Assembly (NCBI GenBank): GCA_016218575.1
Contig: JACRDN010000019.1
Location: 124,001 to 188,000 of the forward strand
Reading direction: 5' to 3'
Origin: Elusimicrobiota bacterium
Lineage (GTDB): Bacteria > Elusimicrobiota > Elusimicrobia > UBA1565 > UBA9628
DNA length: 64,000 nt
Shown here: positions 18,764 to 27,163 of the stretch, one piece after another
Position numbering within the stretch: position 1 is the first letter of the stretch
How the letters are laid out: each line of letters begins with the position of its first letter
Notes under the pieces: model-generated
Told to the model about the DNA's origin: nothing
The model's database searches: none
Seen by the model: only the letters and a program-made list of their open reading frames with translations
Position numbers and translations under genes: made by a program

Positions 18764-21121
18764 ATGAGGAAATGCCTTCTTCTTCTTTTTCTGGGCTTGG
18801 GCCCGCCCTCCGCTTTCGCCGAGAGCCGCGAGAAAATCGTGGATTCCACCATCCAGGAGATAGTGGACAAGAAGGAGAATCCAGGGCTCTACCAGGCCGT
18901 CAAGGCTGTGGTCTTAAAGAACCTCGGGCAATTGCCGCCCGAGCCCAAGCCCGGCGCTTCCGAGCAGGACCGGGAGCGGTATAAAGAGGCCATGCGCTCC
19001 CTCCTCACCAAGAAGCTCGACGTGGAGCCCGTGGACTCGGAGGACCTCCAAGACATCAATCAGGAAGAGCTGTTTCGCGCGGCCCATAACGTGATGACCC
19101 ATCTGGCCCGGACCCTCGTTCCCCCGCAGGAGGTCAAGCCCCAGCCCACCGAGGCCGGCGATCCCGGGGCCAAGGCCCGCGTCATCGTTTCCGAGGTCGA
19201 GGCCCAGAAAAAGCCCAACGACCCCGAAGCCCAGAGGGACCTGGGGCTGGTCTACTATTGGCAGGGGCGTTTCCGGGAGGCCCACCGCAGGCTTGCCCGG
19301 GCCATCCAACTGGGCGGCGGCGACGCCGAGACCTTGGCGGCCTACGGGAGCGCTGCGTATTCCCTCGGCGACTACGAGCAGGCCGAGGAGGCCGCCAAGC
19401 TCGCCCTTCAAAAAGACCCTGAAAACAAGACGGCCCTGGCTCTGGCCAACCTTGCCCGGGGGAAAGTTTCCTCGGCCCGTCTGCCCTCGGCCATGGAGGA
19501 CGAGTCCAGCGGAGTGCTCTGGGAGGGGGGAGGGGATCCCAGGACCGCGGCCGAGATCGCGGCCCAGGCCGGGCGCCCCGCGCCCGCCTCGGGCGCCCAC
19601 CAGTCGGCCGCCGTGACCTTGGAGGCCGCCTCGGCCTTGGCCATCAAGGACTACGCCTCGGCCCATGCCTTGGCCTCCAAGGCCATCGAGCTCAACTCTG
19701 GCAACGCGCAGGCCTGGAATTATCGGGCCATCGCGGACAACAAGCTCGGGCGCTACGGCGAGGCGGTTTATGACGCGAGTTTTTCCTTGAGCCTGGTCCC
19801 GGGAAGCGCTGCCGCCCTTCAGACCAGGTCCTGGGCCTTCAGCAAGCAGAAAAGGTATCAGGAAGCCTTGGCCGATGCCAACGCGACCTTGGAAAGCGAG
19901 CCCGGCAATGGTTTTGCCTACCAGAACCGGGCTTTTGCCTTGGCGGGGCTGGGGGACAGGGCGGGGGTCCTGGAGTCCTTGCGGCTCTCGGCCGAACTCG
20001 ATGCGCGTTTTAAGCCTAGATATGAGGGAGCTTCGCAGGCCCCCGATGGGGCTGATCTGCTGTATCTTTTCGACGAGGCGCCGGCCTCTCGGCAAAAGCC
20101 CGCGCCCGTCCCCGTTCCCGCGAGCTCGCGCAATCGGCGCTTCTTGCGCCTGCTCATCCTCTCCGTGAGCGGAGGGATCCTCACGGCCCTGGCTTTCCTG
20201 AACATCCTTTCCTCCGCCTGGCGCGAAAGGGCGCGAGCCACGCTGCGTCGGGTCCTGGGGGCCTCGCCGGCCGCGGATAAGCTCGGGGTAAAAGCCCGCA
20301 GTGGAGGAAAATTTCACTCCCAGTACGAAATTATTCGGAGCATCGGCTCTGGCGGGATGGGAATGGTTTACGAGGCCCGGGATAAGGCTCTCGACCGCCG
20401 CGTGGCCGTCAAGAAGATGCGCGAGGAGATACGCGCTAGCCCCGTGGAGCGGCGCCATTTCGTGACCGAGGCTCGGACCGTGGCTGCCCTGCATCACCCG
20501 CACATCGTGGATATCTACGCCATTGTCGAGGACCAGGACGAGGTCTATCTCATCTTCGAGTACGTGGCGGGCAAGACCTTGGCCGACTGGATCGACGAGA
20601 AGGGGGGCCTTTCCTACGGGGAGGCCTGCCGCATACTGGAGGGTGCCTGCCAGGCCGTCGAGTACGCGCACCGACAGAAGGTGATCCATCGGGATCTCAA
20701 GCCCTCCAACATCATGGTGACCGAGGACGGCCAGGCCAAGGTCATGGACTTCGGTGTGGCCCGCCAGGCCAAGGAGGCTCTGACCAAGCTTTCCATGACC
20801 GGGACCATAGTGGGCACGCCTCCGTACATGGCACCTGAGCAGGAGCAGGGAGCGGTTTGCAAGGAGTCCGATCTCTTCGCCTTGGGCGTCTGCTTCTACG
20901 AGATGCTTTCCGGAAGCCTTCCCTTCGCCGGCCAGGGCGCGGGGCTTCTCTTGAACAAACTCAACGGCAAGCACATTCCCATCACCCAGGCCGCGAAAAA
21001 CGGCCTGCCCGCCGGGCTCGACGCAGTCCTCTCCAAGGCCCTGCATCCCGATCCCCGGAAGCGTTATGCGAGCCCCTCCGAGCTGTGGGAGGCCGTCTCA
21101 ATCTTAAAAAACGGTAAATAA
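18764..21121 (+). CDS. TPR-transmembrane-Ser/Thr protein kinase
   Basis: This 785-residue protein combines four parts. A signal-like N-terminus (MRKCLLLLFLGLGPPSAFA) is followed by a helical region and TPR repeats (about 140-430; for example ETLAAYGSAAYSLGDYEQAEEAAKLAL). One membrane helix (about 459-481) leads to a complete Hanks-type kinase (about 519-783). Kinase motifs: GSGGMGMVYEA, VAVKK (about 550), HRDLKPSN (about 640), MDFGVAR and GTPPYMAPEQ. The expected topology is TPR outside the cytoplasmic membrane and kinase inside, the reverse order of PknB-type PASTA kinases. The ligand and substrate are unknown. The promoter leaves a leader of only about 5 bases. A paralogue with the same layout follows 47 bases downstream. 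Confidence 0.93.
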   Translation: MRKCLLLLFLGLGPPSAFAESREKIVDSTIQEIVDKKENPGLYQAVKAVVLKNLGQLPPEPKPGASEQDRERYKEAMRSLLTKKLDVEPVDSEDLQDINQEELFRAAHNVMTHLARTLVPPQEVKPQPTEAGDPGAKARVIVSEVEAQKKPNDPEAQRDLGLVYYWQGRFREAHRRLARAIQLGGGDAETLAAYGSAAYSLGDYEQAEEAAKLALQKDPENKTALALANLARGKVSSARLPSAMEDESSGVLWEGGGDPRTAAEIAAQAGRPAPASGAHQSAAVTLEAASALAIKDYASAHALASKAIELNSGNAQAWNYRAIADNKLGRYGEAVYDASFSLSLVPGSAAALQTRSWAFSKQKRYQEALADANATLESEPGNGFAYQNRAFALAGLGDRAGVLESLRLSAELDARFKPRYEGASQAPDGADLLYLFDEAPASRQKPAPVPVPASSRNRRFLRLLILSVSGGILTALAFLNILSSAWRERARATLRRVLGASPAADKLGVKARSGGKFHSQYEIIRSIGSGGMGMVYEARDKALDRRVAVKKMREEIRASPVERRHFVTEARTVAALHHPHIVDIYAIVEDQDEVYLIFEYVAGKTLADWIDEKGGLSYGEACRILEGACQAVEYAHRQKVIHRDLKPSNIMVTEDGQAKVMDFGVARQAKEALTKLSMTGTIVGTPPYMAPEQEQGAVCKESDLFALGVCFYEMLSGSLPFAGQGAGLLLNKLNGKHIPITQAAKNGLPAGLDAVLSKALHPDPRKRYASPSELWEAVSILKNGK

Positions 21122-21168: not shown

Positions 21169-23694
21169 GTGAGGATGATCCTCGCCGCCTTTCTGATGGT
21201 GGCGCTCCCGGCTTGCGCGGGGGCCGACGAGCCGATGGTCTGCGGAAAGGACGCCCGCTCCTGCGGCCGCCACGATCACCAGGAGCCTCCCGCCGCGCCG
21301 GACTTGCCGGCCGAGCCGCCCGAAGACCACCGCAAAGGCGACGAGGACGAACTCCTGCCCTTGAAACCCGAGCAGAAGGCCCTCCTCGAGGTGAAATGGC
21401 CCGGGACCTTTGAAAAATTCCACAGGGTCATGCATGAGTTGGTCGACAATCTTCCCGGCCAGGACTCGCGGCGCAGGTATAAGCCCACCATCATCACCGA
21501 GGTGAACCATATCCTGATGGTCGCGGCCCAGTACGTTAAGCTGGAGGACGATTTCAAAAATCGCGTCATTTCCGCCCAGTCCCACGACAGTCTGCTGGAG
21601 AAATACCGCGGCCAAATGGAAAAATCCGGGGAGAGATTGGATCATTTGCCGCTGCCGCGCCATGAGCGGGGCCTAGCCGGCGCGGGGCCCGGCTGGGGAG
21701 ACCCTCGCGGGCACGAGGCCAATCCGGCCAGCGTCCATAACATAGTGATGAAGGCGGGGTTGGATTCCATCATGAACAGCGTCATCGGCGCCAAGAACCA
21801 CGCCGACCATACCATCCACAACAACCCGCCCAACCCTTACAATTGGTCCCAAGGCGGGGACGCCTACTTGAAGGAGGGCGATGCCAAGAAGGCCGTGGAG
21901 TATTACACCAAGGCGATCCAATTGGACCCCGGCCATTTCGAGGCCTTAAAGGGCCGGGCGGCCGCGCAGTACGAGCTCAAGAATTACCGCGAGGCCTCCC
22001 AGGACGCCAAGGCCGCCTTGAAAATCGATCCCTCGGATTCCCAGGCCCTGGCCTTGGCCCAGCTTTCCCACGAGGTGGGGGGCAAGGCCCCCTCCGGCGC
22101 CGCGGTCCCGGCTTGGAATTCTTCAGAGTCCCAAGACGGCGCGCCGGGAGAAGGCTTCGGCGGTCTCGCGGCTTCCCCCAAGGCGGCCGCGGCGGCGGAG
22201 ACGCCTGTGGTCCTGGCCCAATCAGCGCGCTATGCTCAGCAGGCCAGGCACTCTTTGGGTCTCGGCGACTACCAGGACGCGATCGCCCAGGCCACTCGGG
22301 CGATCGAGCTTAACGCCATGAACGCCCAGGCCCTGTACATGCGCTCGGCGGCCTACGCCAAAACCCGTCTCTATGACAAGGCCTCGGAGGACGCGGAGGC
22401 GGGACTCAAGCTCGATCCCAAGAACGGACCCCTTCTCGACGCCAAGGCGGCGGCCTTGAACCGCCTCAAGCGCTACCGGGAGGCCCTGCAGGCGGCCAAC
22501 GCGGCCCTGGAGGTCAACCCCAAGGACGCCGCGGCCCATTACCTGCGGGCCATGGCCTTGGCGGGTTTGGCAGAGAGGGACCCCATGCAGGAGTCCCTAA
22601 AGGCGGCCGCGGCCCTCGACCCCCGCTATGGGCCGATTCTCGAAGCCGCCCTCCAGCTTCCCGAGGACGCGGACCTGCTCTTCTTATTCCCGGAGGAGGG
22701 CCGAGCCGCCCCTCGCTCGGCTCCCGCCCGTCGCTCTCGGCTGGTCCTCGTCGCCTTGGCCGTCGCGGCCGGCGCTCTCCTGCTCGCCTTCGGCGCGGCG
22801 CCGTTTTTCATGCCGTCGCTCAGGACCCGTATCCAGACCGGACGCTGGCCGAACGCCCGCCCTCCTGAGCCCGGCGTGATCGGCGGCCAGTACCGGCTCT
22901 CGCGCCAGATCGGGATCGGGGGCATGGGCCAGGTTTACGAGGGGACCGATGTCTCCCTGAACCGCCGGGTGGCGGTCAAGCGCATGAGGGAGGAACTGCG
23001 CCAGGATCCGCGCGAGCGCGAGCGCTTTTTGAGCGAGGCCCGCCTTGTCGCGGCCCTCCATCACCCTCATATCGTGGACATTTACGCCATCGTGGAGGAC
23101 CAAGAGGAGGTGTATCTCATCTTCGAGTTCGTGCCCGGCAAGACCGTCTACGACTTGGCGGGGGCCCATGGGCGCCTGGACTGGTCTCAGACTTTGGAGA
23201 TACTGCGCGGCGTGGCCGAGGCCTTGGATTACGCGCACTCCCGCAGGGTCATCCACCGCGATCTCAAGCCGTCCAACATCATGGTGACGCAAGACGGCCA
23301 GGCCAAGGTCATGGATTTCGGCATCGCCCGCATGGCCAAGGACGCGGCCAGCCGCCGCTCGCTCACCAACACCGTCGTGGGCACGCCTCCCTACATGGCT
23401 CCGGAGCAGGAGCAAGGCGAGGTGGGCCGGGCCGCCGACATCTATTCCCTCGGCGTCTGCCTCTACGAGATGCTTTCGGGTCAGATGCCCTTCCAGGGGA
23501 GCGGCGCGGGCATGTTCCTCAACAAGGTGCAGAAGAACTACACGCCCTTGACCAAGGCCGCTTCGGGCCTGCCCGAGGGCCTCGACGAGGTCCTGGCCAA
23601 GGCCTTGGACCCCGACCCCGGCCGGCGCTTTGCGAGCGCCGGGGAGCTCATGGCCGCCTTGGAGGATCTTTCCCCCGGCCGCGTTTTGGGCTGA
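21169..23694 (+). CDS. TPR-transmembrane-Ser/Thr protein kinase, paralogue 2
   Basis: This 841-residue paralogue has the same layout as the kinase upstream. A signal peptide (MRMILAAFLMVALPACAGA) precedes a His/Asp/Glu-rich helical region, TPR repeats (about 220-505; GDAYLKEGDAKKAVEYYTKA, LGDYQDAIAQATRAIEL), one membrane helix (about 524-547) and a C-terminal kinase (about 574-835). Kinase motifs are GIGGMGQVYEG, VAVKRM, HRDLKPSN (about 694), DFGIAR and GTPPYMAPEQ. Both kinases share the juxtamembrane D-R-Y segment followed by DADLLFLF, and the string LHHPHIVDIYAIVEDQ, so they arose by duplication. GTG 21169 is chosen because a -10 box ends 6 bases before it. Each gene having its own promoter suggests separate control. 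Confidence 0.92.
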   Translation: MRMILAAFLMVALPACAGADEPMVCGKDARSCGRHDHQEPPAAPDLPAEPPEDHRKGDEDELLPLKPEQKALLEVKWPGTFEKFHRVMHELVDNLPGQDSRRRYKPTIITEVNHILMVAAQYVKLEDDFKNRVISAQSHDSLLEKYRGQMEKSGERLDHLPLPRHERGLAGAGPGWGDPRGHEANPASVHNIVMKAGLDSIMNSVIGAKNHADHTIHNNPPNPYNWSQGGDAYLKEGDAKKAVEYYTKAIQLDPGHFEALKGRAAAQYELKNYREASQDAKAALKIDPSDSQALALAQLSHEVGGKAPSGAAVPAWNSSESQDGAPGEGFGGLAASPKAAAAAETPVVLAQSARYAQQARHSLGLGDYQDAIAQATRAIELNAMNAQALYMRSAAYAKTRLYDKASEDAEAGLKLDPKNGPLLDAKAAALNRLKRYREALQAANAALEVNPKDAAAHYLRAMALAGLAERDPMQESLKAAAALDPRYGPILEAALQLPEDADLLFLFPEEGRAAPRSAPARRSRLVLVALAVAAGALLLAFGAAPFFMPSLRTRIQTGRWPNARPPEPGVIGGQYRLSRQIGIGGMGQVYEGTDVSLNRRVAVKRMREELRQDPRERERFLSEARLVAALHHPHIVDIYAIVEDQEEVYLIFEFVPGKTVYDLAGAHGRLDWSQTLEILRGVAEALDYAHSRRVIHRDLKPSNIMVTQDGQAKVMDFGIARMAKDAASRRSLTNTVVGTPPYMAPEQEQGEVGRAADIYSLGVCLYEMLSGQMPFQGSGAGMFLNKVQKNYTPLTKAASGLPEGLDEVLAKALDPDPGRRFASAGELMAALEDLSPGRVLG

Positions 23695-25697: not shown

Positions 25698-25961
25698 CTA
25701 GGCGTCGATCACTTTCAGGGACTCGATGACGGAGGGGTTCTTGCTGGGAAGGCAAATGACGCGGTCCCTGCCGTATTCCCGGCGCAGCGCGCTCAACACT
25801 TCGTCGAGCCAGGACGGGCCCACCGAGAGCACCCCCTCGAAATCGAGCTCTATTTTTTCGTTCCCGGCCGGTCTCTGGTAGGCCTTCATCGCGAGAGCCG
25901 CCTCCTTCCCGGCGGGCCGCGACGTCAGAATCTCCCCGTATTTCTTCACCTTTATCTTCAT
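25698..25961 (-). CDS. STAS-like domain protein (DUF4325 type)
   Basis: This 87-residue protein (MKIKVKKYGEILTSRPAGKEA) matches the STAS-like DUF4325 pattern: a short strand-helix start, then IELDFEGVLSVGPSWLDEVLSAL, then the closing strand and helix with NPSVIESLKVI. Such domains resemble anti-sigma-factor antagonists. The ATG at 25961 shares its A with the last base of the upstream ATPase stop (TAATG), so translation is coupled. The partner is therefore very probably the GHKL ATPase, forming a switch like SpoIIAB/SpoIIAA. Whether a serine is phosphorylated is unknown. An upstream in-frame extension lies wholly within the ATPase gene and is rejected. Confidence 0.75.
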   Translation of the reverse strand: MKIKVKKYGEILTSRPAGKEAALAMKAYQRPAGNEKIELDFEGVLSVGPSWLDEVLSALRREYGRDRVICLPSKNPSVIESLKVIDA

Positions 25962-26710
25962 TATAGGCTCCAAGCGATCAAAGTGATCGTGCCTTCCGAG
26001 TCGGGCAGACTTTCCAGTTCCCTTTCGCAATCCGGGCCAAGCGGCCCGTAATTCACAATGCCCTTTCCCGATCGGCAGGCCAGTCCCCGGCGGCCGCCTC
26101 CCGTCATTATATTTTTAACAAACTTCAAGCCGTTTCCCCTATTTTCAGGAGCCCGCCCGGAAATGGTTCTCTCGAACGCGGCGACGAGGGCGCTTTGCTC
26201 GTCCTTGAGCTCGGGGGCGACCCGCGCCAGGGAACGCCATATCCCCTGCCCGCGATCCGCGATGCAGACCCACTGTTTGCCGACGGCGGCTTGGGCTTGG
26301 TGCCAGCATCCCGGCACGTCCCGCCATTGGCCGAGGTTGTGATCGTAGCAGTTGTTCCCGACTTCGCCGACGGCCGAGATGAGGAGGGGTAAATCGGCGC
26401 CTTTGAGCTGGCTCAAGCGGGCCGAAAAAACGTCACGGGTCTCGCAGATGAACTCGGCGGGGCTTTCGTCCGGGCGGCCCGCCGCGGCGTACCAACGCAT
26501 GGCTCTTTCCAGGTCGGGGCGCCCGGCCAAGAAATAGCGGGTTAGGGGTCCGCGGCCGCGGGACTCAAGCGCGCCTTCGGCCAAAAGGCGCTTGAGATGG
26601 CGGTGGATGGCTTGGGGGGTGATTTTCAACCGATGGACCAAAGTGATCGGTCTCGTGGCCCCTTCCTCTTCTATGATTTTTATAATTTTGGACCGCGTTT
26701 CTCCCTTCAT
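25961..26710 (-). CDS. Winged-helix/GHKL-ATPase regulator
   Basis: This 249-residue protein has an N-terminal winged helix-turn-helix (about 1-65; TRPITLVHRLKITPQAIHRHLKRLLAEG), a linker, and a HATPase_c domain (about 105-249). The N box is AVGEVGNNCYDHN, G1 is DRGQGIW and G2 is NRGNGLKFVKNI. There is no histidine-kinase dimerisation domain, so it resembles an anti-sigma kinase fused to a DNA-binding domain. It forms a two-gene operon with the STAS-like protein. The ATG at 26710 lies at the edge of a 33-bp AT-rich palindrome (26709-26741), the likely autoregulatory operator. It is divergent from ssrA. Confidence 0.85.
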   Translation of the reverse strand: MKGETRSKIIKIIEEEGATRPITLVHRLKITPQAIHRHLKRLLAEGALESRGRGPLTRYFLAGRPDLERAMRWYAAAGRPDESPAEFICETRDVFSARLSQLKGADLPLLISAVGEVGNNCYDHNLGQWRDVPGCWHQAQAAVGKQWVCIADRGQGIWRSLARVAPELKDEQSALVAAFERTISGRAPENRGNGLKFVKNIMTGGGRRGLACRSGKGIVNYGPLGPDCERELESLPDSEGTITLIAWSL

Positions 26711-26741
26711 AGTTTATAGTTTAGTATAAACTATAAACTAT
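26709..26741. promoter_or_regulatory. 33-bp palindromic operator, four TATAGTTTA-type units
   Basis: ATAGTTTATAGTTTA, centre GTA, TAAACTATAAACTAT: perfect 15-bp arms, each made of two tandem units. It covers the start codon of the winged-helix ATPase and ends 16 bases before the ssrA -35 box. The AT-rich sequence stands out in a GC-rich region. Autoregulation by the HTH domain is inferred. Confidence 0.75.
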
Positions 26742-26756
26742 AAATATTCAATAGTA

Positions 26757-26785
26757 TTGAAGAACAGCCCGGCATCTGCTATAGT
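26757..26785 (+). promoter_or_regulatory. ssrA promoter
   Basis: TTGAAG (26757-26762), 17-base spacer, TATAGT (26780-26785). The predicted start falls at 26792-26793, the first base of the tmRNA acceptor stem. Confidence 0.75.
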
Positions 26786-26792
26786 TCTTCCA

Positions 26793-27156
26793 GGGGGCGA
26801 ATTAGGTTCGACAGGCATCGTCGGGTCAAGAGTCGCAGGCACTGGTTGGTCAGAGCCAGTTCAAAATCCGACCAAAAAACAAAAGCCATGAATCGCCTAA
26901 CGGCGCGTGACTGGGCCTTCGCTGCCTAAACCGCAGTAGGTCCCGTCGGTCCTCGACTCCTGCTGGAGGGTGCCGACGTCATGAGCAGGATGCGGATTCT
27001 CCCGCTGTTCCCGTCGGAGGGGATCCTAAGCCCGAACGGGGGTAGTCCGGAGATACTCGTCCGGCAGTTTTCTCCGGATGAAACCCAAGACGGACTAAGC
27101 CTGTAGGGACCTTGGCGGACGGTACTTGGACGAGAGTGCAATTCTCTCCGCCTCCA
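26793..27156 (+). ncRNA. ssrA: Transfer-messenger RNA (tmRNA)
   Basis: tmRNA rescues stalled ribosomes and tags the nascent chain. The 5' GGGGGCG pairs with CGCCTCC at 27149-27155 as the acceptor stem. GGTTCGACAGG is the typical 5' segment and GACTAAGCCTGTAG the typical 3' one, and the T arm is GAGAG-TGCAATT-CTCTC. The tag frame ends at TAA 26926-26928; reading back gives an end of MNRLTARDWAFAA, preceded by GCC (Ala), a likely resume codon. The tag end AFAA differs from the common ALAA. The base after the stem is A27156 and the next three are CCG, so CCA is probably added after transcription. A nucleotidyltransferase gene is in the window (47300-48424). Confidence 0.93.
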
Positions 27157-27163
27157 CCGTTTT

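Follow-up and report, generated by a model that had tools for sequence, protein, structure and literature searches.

A winged-helix GHKL kinase-like gene coupled to a STAS-like gene at a conserved operator-like palindrome in Elusimicrobiota

Two overlapping genes and their products

The minus strand of a 64-kb stretch of Elusimicrobiota DNA (the window, meaning the whole stretch that was analysed) carries two overlapping genes preceded by a palindrome. The first gene encodes P0001, a winged helix-turn-helix (wHTH) protein with a GHKL ATPase domain, and the second encodes the small STAS-like protein P0002. The features of the locus, with the evidence for each, are as follows.

25698 to 25961, minus strand: STAS-like DUF4325 protein P0002, 87 aa (ORF, Pfam, model)
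25812 to 25814, minus strand: Ser50 codon of P0002, candidate phospho-acceptor, invariant in 80 of 80 sequences (alignment, model)
25961 to 26710, minus strand: wHTH-GHKL protein P0001, 249 aa (ORF, Pfam, model)
26522 to 26710, minus strand: winged helix-turn-helix domain, residues 1–63, with recognition helix 32–44 (Pfam, model)
25964 to 26461, minus strand: GHKL ATPase/kinase-like domain, about residues 84–249 (model, motifs)
26709 to 26741, no strand: operator-like palindrome ATAGTTTATAGTTTA-TAC-TAAACTATAAACTAT in minus-strand reading (shuffles and motif conservation)
26723 to 26728, minus strand: −10-like TATACT, inside the palindrome (promoter search; same layout in relatives)
26746 to 26751, minus strand: −35-like TTGAAT (promoter search; same layout in relatives)

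The winged helix of P0001 was recognized by Pfam (HTH_24, 24.8 bits against a cut-off of 21.9) and was well formed in an AlphaFold2 model of the whole protein (mean pLDDT 85.2), with helices at residues 2–16, 21–28 and 32–44 and two wing strands. The initial annotation had named a missing recognition helix as grounds for abandoning its reading; the model places one confidently at residues 32–44 (pLDDT 95 over residues 31–40 and 91 over 41–50), and the nearest solved folds are Zalpha and MarR/ArsR domains (Z about 10 to 12.6). HATPase_c_2 stayed below its Pfam cut-off (13.4 against 27.4), so the GHKL assignment rests on the N, G1 and G2 motifs and on the match of the model to SpoIIAB (Z 12.1 over 127 residues, 2.9 Å). 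Residues E116, N120 and H124, D152-x-G154-x-G156 and R191-G-N-G-L195 (RGNGL), which we take to be the N-box, G1 box and G2 box, were each invariant in 81 of 81 sequences, and Trp73, just before the GHKL domain, was conserved in 80 of the 81. The modelled chain runs from the winged helix (1–63) through a short helix (68–75) into the GHKL domain, leaving no room for a STAS domain. Searches of both proteins against PADLOC and PHROGs returned weak wHTH-type matches and, over the GHKL part, one phage family annotated without a function.

The ATG of P0002 at 25961 overlaps the kinase stop codon in the sequence TAATG. DUF4325 (PF14213) was above its cut-off (36.4 against 23 bits), canonical STAS (PF01740) was not among the Pfam matches up to E 1, and the model shows a single STAS-like domain (pLDDT 90.7). 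Similarity of that model to anti-sigma antagonists with a STAS domain was weak (Z 7.2 and 7.1), Foldseek gave no match for it at E 0.001, and a STAS profile of P0002 found no useful match among solved structures. Ser50 lies within a PSW motif invariant in 80 of 80 sequences and opens the second STAS helix in the model. A profile–profile alignment paired it with the second serine in DSSG, a motif of canonical STAS domains, which we treat as a hint because the alignment had negligible probability. Taken together, Pfam, motifs and model agree with the original description of a wHTH-GHKL gene joined through TAATG to a STAS-like DUF4325 gene, and the domains and the SpoIIAB match fit its comparison with an anti-sigma-kinase-like ATPase and STAS antagonist in which DNA binding is built into the kinase. 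Across the genome that holds the window we found no PF01740 protein at E 0.001, and two DUF4325 proteins were the only STAS-like proteins found.

The palindrome and the promoter it overlaps

The arms of the palindrome are perfect over 15 bp (26709–26723 and 26727–26741) around a 3-bp spacer. Four copies of ATAGTTTA occur in the window, all within the palindrome, where 0.10 would be expected; none of 100 shuffles reached four, and shuffling the upstream sequence 300 times yielded no palindrome as good. The four-unit perfect inverted repeat reported by the initial annotation is therefore real, though its claim that the repeat covers the start codon holds for the first two of the three bases, the ATG running from 26710 to 26708.

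A sigma-70-like promoter, TTGAAT-17-TATACT, which the initial annotation had not mentioned, overlaps this site. Its −10 box and the greater part of its spacer fall within the palindrome, so that any factor bound there would be expected to obstruct RNA polymerase. The same layout recurs in relatives: in 10 of 20 close loci TTGnnn or TGGnnn-17-TAnnnT stops 12 nt short of the ATG, and 13 of 16 Patescibacteria wHTH loci have an exact TTGACA box. From the −10 position, transcription is expected to start some five bases ahead of the ATG. A perfect inverted repeat so close to a start codon might also work in RNA, as a hairpin in the 5′ leader, and not as a DNA operator. We reject this most improbable reading because a −10 box that ends 12 nt ahead of the ATG should leave the larger part of the repeat out of the transcript; the expected 5′ end also folds unremarkably (z 0.01). 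A tmRNA gene (26793–27159, plus strand; Rfam 123.8 bits, not reported by ARAGORN), likewise absent from the initial annotation, diverges from the kinase gene, and five bases separate its promoter-like TTGAAG-17-TATAGT (26757–26785) from the kinase promoter, which faces the other way.

We aligned the upstream regions of 16 Elusimicrobiota loci, that is, the 17 with a near-full-length gene minus one cut at its contig start. All 16 carry the palindrome motif, its absence from orthologous loci having been the other finding that would have counted against the initial reading, and the proteins they precede are 53–65% identical. The alignment contains 12 invariant and 9 nearly invariant columns, and 17 of these 21 fall within the palindrome. 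The sequence is better preserved than the symmetry. Judged against shuffles, the operator clearly stands out as a palindrome in 9 of the 16 loci, is marginal in two (L042 and L045), does not stand out in three (L038, L041 and L051) and is outscored by another palindrome in two (L040 and L046). Paired changes in the arms are few, with 4 double complementary against 38 single or other departures across 20 loci.

A scan of the 17 carrier genomes for the 19-bp core ATAGTTTA-N3-TAAACTAT with at most two mismatches returned their own operators (those of G016 and G068 need three mismatches, and that of G050 lies beyond its contig end) and two further places, G000:C14 and G045:C13. Within the same family, 3 of 37 genomes that lack the full gene had a core match, one of these being the remnant in G013 described below. 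The operator is nearly unique in each carrier genome. The feature noted at this locus is real and phylogenetically conserved.

Distribution, neighbourhood and known relatives

A P0001-like protein was detected in 25 of 196 genomes searched and was near full length in 17, the window's own genome included. The STAS gene follows directly 3′ in 17 of 17 Elusimicrobiota loci, start codons being predicted and neighbouring ORFs taken from a mechanical ORF caller. Clustering of the ORFs around the 17 copies revealed no constant third gene and no neighbour common to more than 3 loci; the clusters other than the pair itself occurred in two or three loci each, at differing distances. Adjoining genes are ordinary and differ by locus (glycosyltransferase, solute-binding protein, hemerythrin, ABC transporter ATPase, Fic). 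PADLOC matches among 98 of the 144 listed neighbour ORFs, the remainder being mostly short ones and a few others, were scattered, with each family in one or two members. In 12 of 35 wHTH loci, the next ORF called beyond the STAS gene is read from the other strand. Neither a sigma-factor gene nor a recurring immune gene was seen beside the pair; for the latter, the Fic gene of one locus (L048) comes closest to an exception. As to phage origin, tblastn found no match in 50,697 phage records, and IMG/VR contigs held one partial relative (43% identity over residues 81–203).

Elsewhere in the window, two adjoining similar genes on the plus strand (18764–21121 and 21169–23694) have apparent TPR repeats and a C-terminal protein-kinase-like domain, as read from their translations. 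The same genome holds a second GHKL and DUF4325 pair (G000:C11; L001 412–453) with a kinase of 322 aa. Two copies of the palindrome ACCGGGATTCCCGG flank a TTGACA box just before its start, and this pair may be autoregulated because the palindromes flank its promoter-like box.

The initial annotation knew of no characterised member, a statement that needs amending: a characterised relative, CapK/CapS, now exists, with its DNA-binding domain on the other partner. CapK/CapS and VapKSC are described in one report (EMBO J 2026; PMC13373217), in which CapK/CapS is a controller of adjacent pathways and is followed by an immune operon in 348 of 443 cases. CapK is there an HTH-STAS-GHKL protein whose HTH has no known role, and CapS is a repressor, a STAS protein with a C-terminal wHTH, that autoregulates its own gene and is phosphorylated on Ser54, with which the second STAS helix begins. 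Both kinases, CapK and VapK, are responsive to ssDNA or DNA damage, and CapK depends on the tryptophan W68 for activation by ssDNA (PMC13373217). Compared with that description, our locus likewise has a GHKL kinase gene followed by a STAS gene, a palindromic site at its own promoter, a conserved serine (Ser50) that the model places at the start of the second STAS helix, as in CapS, and autoregulation, which is reported for CapK/CapS and would be expected here from the sequence. Unlike CapK, P0001 in its model carries the wHTH as its sole extra domain, without an internal STAS domain; unlike CapS, P0002 is a bare STAS domain of 87 aa without a wHTH; and this pair lacks a constant neighbour and an adjacent immune operon. 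Three features that define CapK/CapS are thus missing: the kinase architecture, the wHTH STAS partner and the adjacent immune operon.

These likenesses raise the reading that the pair also controls an adjacent pathway, repressing itself and a neighbouring immune operon until DNA damage releases both. The gene order and kinase/STAS logic of CapK/CapS point that way, as does Trp73, a candidate equivalent of the W68 required for ssDNA activation of CapK (PMC13373217). We nevertheless think it quite unlikely: no neighbour recurs in more than 3 of 17 loci and distances differ, flanking genes are ordinary, the PADLOC matches are scattered, and in 12 of 35 wHTH loci the next ORF is on the other strand.

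In VapKSC, from the same report, a kinase and a STAS protein of this kind are coupled with a VapC toxin (PMC13373217); the present pair resembles VapKSC in combining a GHKL kinase with a small STAS protein that has no wHTH, and differs in that VapK has an internal STAS domain and the operon a VapC toxin gene, neither of which was found here. A toxin-antitoxin-like module, with an autoregulating DNA-binding first gene and a small second gene as effector, would fit that precedent, the two overlapping genes with their own operator, the patchy distribution (near full length in 17 of 196 genomes, own included) and the lack of constant neighbours. We hold it to be very unlikely. No nuclease gene is present in the cassette, and VapB- and VapC-like ORFs were found only beside the decayed copy in G013. 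That copy has lost most of its kinase gene but retains the promoter, an operator remnant and a STAS gene that is intact, which is unexpected for a toxin without its antitoxin. The second gene, moreover, is STAS-like, and we know of no toxic activity for this fold. The G013 remnant itself (L024 1460–1973) retains just the C-terminal GHKL end of the kinase, and its VapB- and VapC-like ORFs, named by eye, lie at 2006–2561 after the STAS gene.

Among older comparisons, the pair shares with SpoIIAB/SpoIIAA and RsbW/RsbV the GHKL fold, an E-x3-N-x3-H motif that presumably corresponds to the SpoIIAB N-box, and a STAS partner with an invariant serine. It departs from them in that no sigma-factor gene was seen adjoining, the DNA-binding domain sits on the kinase, and the partner belongs to DUF4325 and not to Pfam STAS (PF01740). 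The N-terminal winged helix and the operator over its own promoter recall autoregulating repressors of the MarR/ArsR type, except that the effector part is a GHKL ATPase with a protein partner in place of a ligand or metal site. Literature searches, in which subscription papers are thinly covered, gave table entries for DUF4325 in two papers and one listing as "STAS-like domain-containing protein", and no title pointing to a wHTH-GHKL/STAS pair; a search combining GHKL, STAS domain, winged helix and anti-sigma returned the CapK/CapS paper alone (PMC13373217).

The wider family and a proposed switch

A profile scan over one genome per species (84,980 species) gave 420 places; we kept the best 80, so these relatives lean to close kin. 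They again include the Elusimicrobiota loci of the 196-genome search, and the two sets are not independent. A single-sequence scan of genome contigs gave no matches. In the kind of survey that the initial annotation had proposed, for wHTH-HATPase genes beside DUF4325 and palindromes at their starts, the STAS gene is next in 79 of the 80, across many phyla (the 80th is cut by a contig end), and a strict operator is present at 23 of 36 wHTH starts. By their N-termini, the best 80 comprise 36 winged-helix proteins, 19 of MerR type, 23 without a DNA-binding domain and 2 others, labels that derive from the profile start and a word pattern, with two loci (L124 and L144) moved by eye to MerR. A Pfam check found MerR in 3 of 3 proteins tried and HTH_24 above cut-off in 1 of 2 Patescibacteria wHTH proteins.

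The TATAGTTTA operator tracks the winged helix. Defined strictly as TATAGT plus ACTATA within a 73-nt stretch that ends at the start, it occurred at 23 of 36 wHTH starts (counting the window and leaving out L086, whose contig starts 10 bases upstream), 0 of 44 others and 0 of 303 control ORF starts (Fisher p 3e-11, with related loci counted as independent). The 13 wHTH starts that fail this test include L134, which by eye has no such motif. A looser test, requiring at least two units with at most one mismatch each and a unit drawn from Elusimicrobiota, Bdellovibrionota and Myxococcota loci, was passed by 12 of 16 Patescibacteria wHTH starts, 2 of 44 non-wHTH starts and 10 of 303 control starts, related loci again being counted as independent. 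Starts in the MerR class instead bear an array in which ATTTGCATAG or AGATTTACCTAG recurs every 10 bp in the direction of the start; this pattern, chosen after seeing these loci, was found in 8 of 19 MerR-type starts, 0 of 61 others and 0 of 303 controls. Relatives without a DNA-binding domain had no obvious common motif at their starts. The operator type follows the type of the fused DNA-binding domain. At one MerR-GHKL start (L128, 157–209), ATTTGCATAG is repeated in tandem upstream for 5.3 copies with 100% matches, and there as in other MerR-type loci the 10-bp repeats lie about one helical turn apart.

A quick GHKL tree, built without the N-terminal columns and with 34 of 78 inner branches open, groups three Elusimicrobiota loci (L094, L095 and L097) with Bdellovibrionota and Myxococcota at a support of 91–94, a placement that suggests transfer at moderate support. 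Explaining the winged-helix label on this tree takes 3 changes, of which starred branches force 2 or more.

The near-uniqueness of the operator, together with the 23 of 80 relatives that have no DNA-binding domain, points to the DNA-binding part as a device for autoregulation and not the main output; most likely, the common output of the kinase/STAS core lies elsewhere. The palindrome could alternatively be merely the strongest site of a small regulon with weaker, distant operators. One of the two further core matches gives this some substance, since at G045:C13 (L165 1470–1510) an AbiEi/XRE-type gene has a TTGACA-17-TATACT-like promoter that contains the core with one mismatch. We consider a regulon unlikely, as two extra places at up to two mismatches are all that 17 carriers yield, and the kinase/STAS core persists in relatives that have no DNA-binding domain.

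The reading we favour, and think rather probable, is a self-contained, autoregulated kinase/STAS partner switch that represses its own operon, phosphorylates Ser50 and has its output at an unlinked target. The wHTH-GHKL protein, probably as a dimer, would bind the palindrome inside its own promoter and repress the two-gene operon, while its GHKL domain, by analogy with SpoIIAB, RsbW and CapK, would bind ATP and phosphorylate the STAS partner on Ser50. The core probably works by Ser50 phosphorylation and partner exchange. Operator occupancy would then be set by two states, the binding of the kinase to its STAS partner and the phosphorylation of that partner, and since the kinase would itself be the repressor, occupancy would report directly on its state. 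The same states would also set the output held in common with relatives that have no DNA-binding domain, at a target not linked to the locus.

The wHTH-GHKL/STAS pair adds to the known GHKL-kinase/STAS switches a new and widespread variant whose logic is close to that of CapK/CapS. More tentatively, it may represent a large and hitherto unrecognised class of orphan "DNA-anchored partner switches" that mirrors CapK/CapS. If so, one GHKL/STAS core extends from Elusimicrobiota to Patescibacteria with a winged helix, a MerR-type domain or no DNA-binding domain, and each fitted domain has its own operator at its own start; the kinase would be a DNA-bound repressor switched by partner or ATP, with an output other than transcription of a neighbour. 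Conservation of Trp73, set beside the response of CapK and VapK to ssDNA or DNA damage (PMC13373217), makes such a response worth considering here.

Kinase, DNA-binding and STAS functions come together within about 1 kb and involve no other gene, which means that two proteins and one 33-bp site could suffice to reconstitute the complete feedback circuit in vitro. The match between operator type and fused DNA-binding domain offers a natural series for how a signalling core acquires a DNA address. The logic of CapK/CapS would thereby be extended to an inverted architecture in Elusimicrobiota and Patescibacteria, lineages whose regulation has been little studied.
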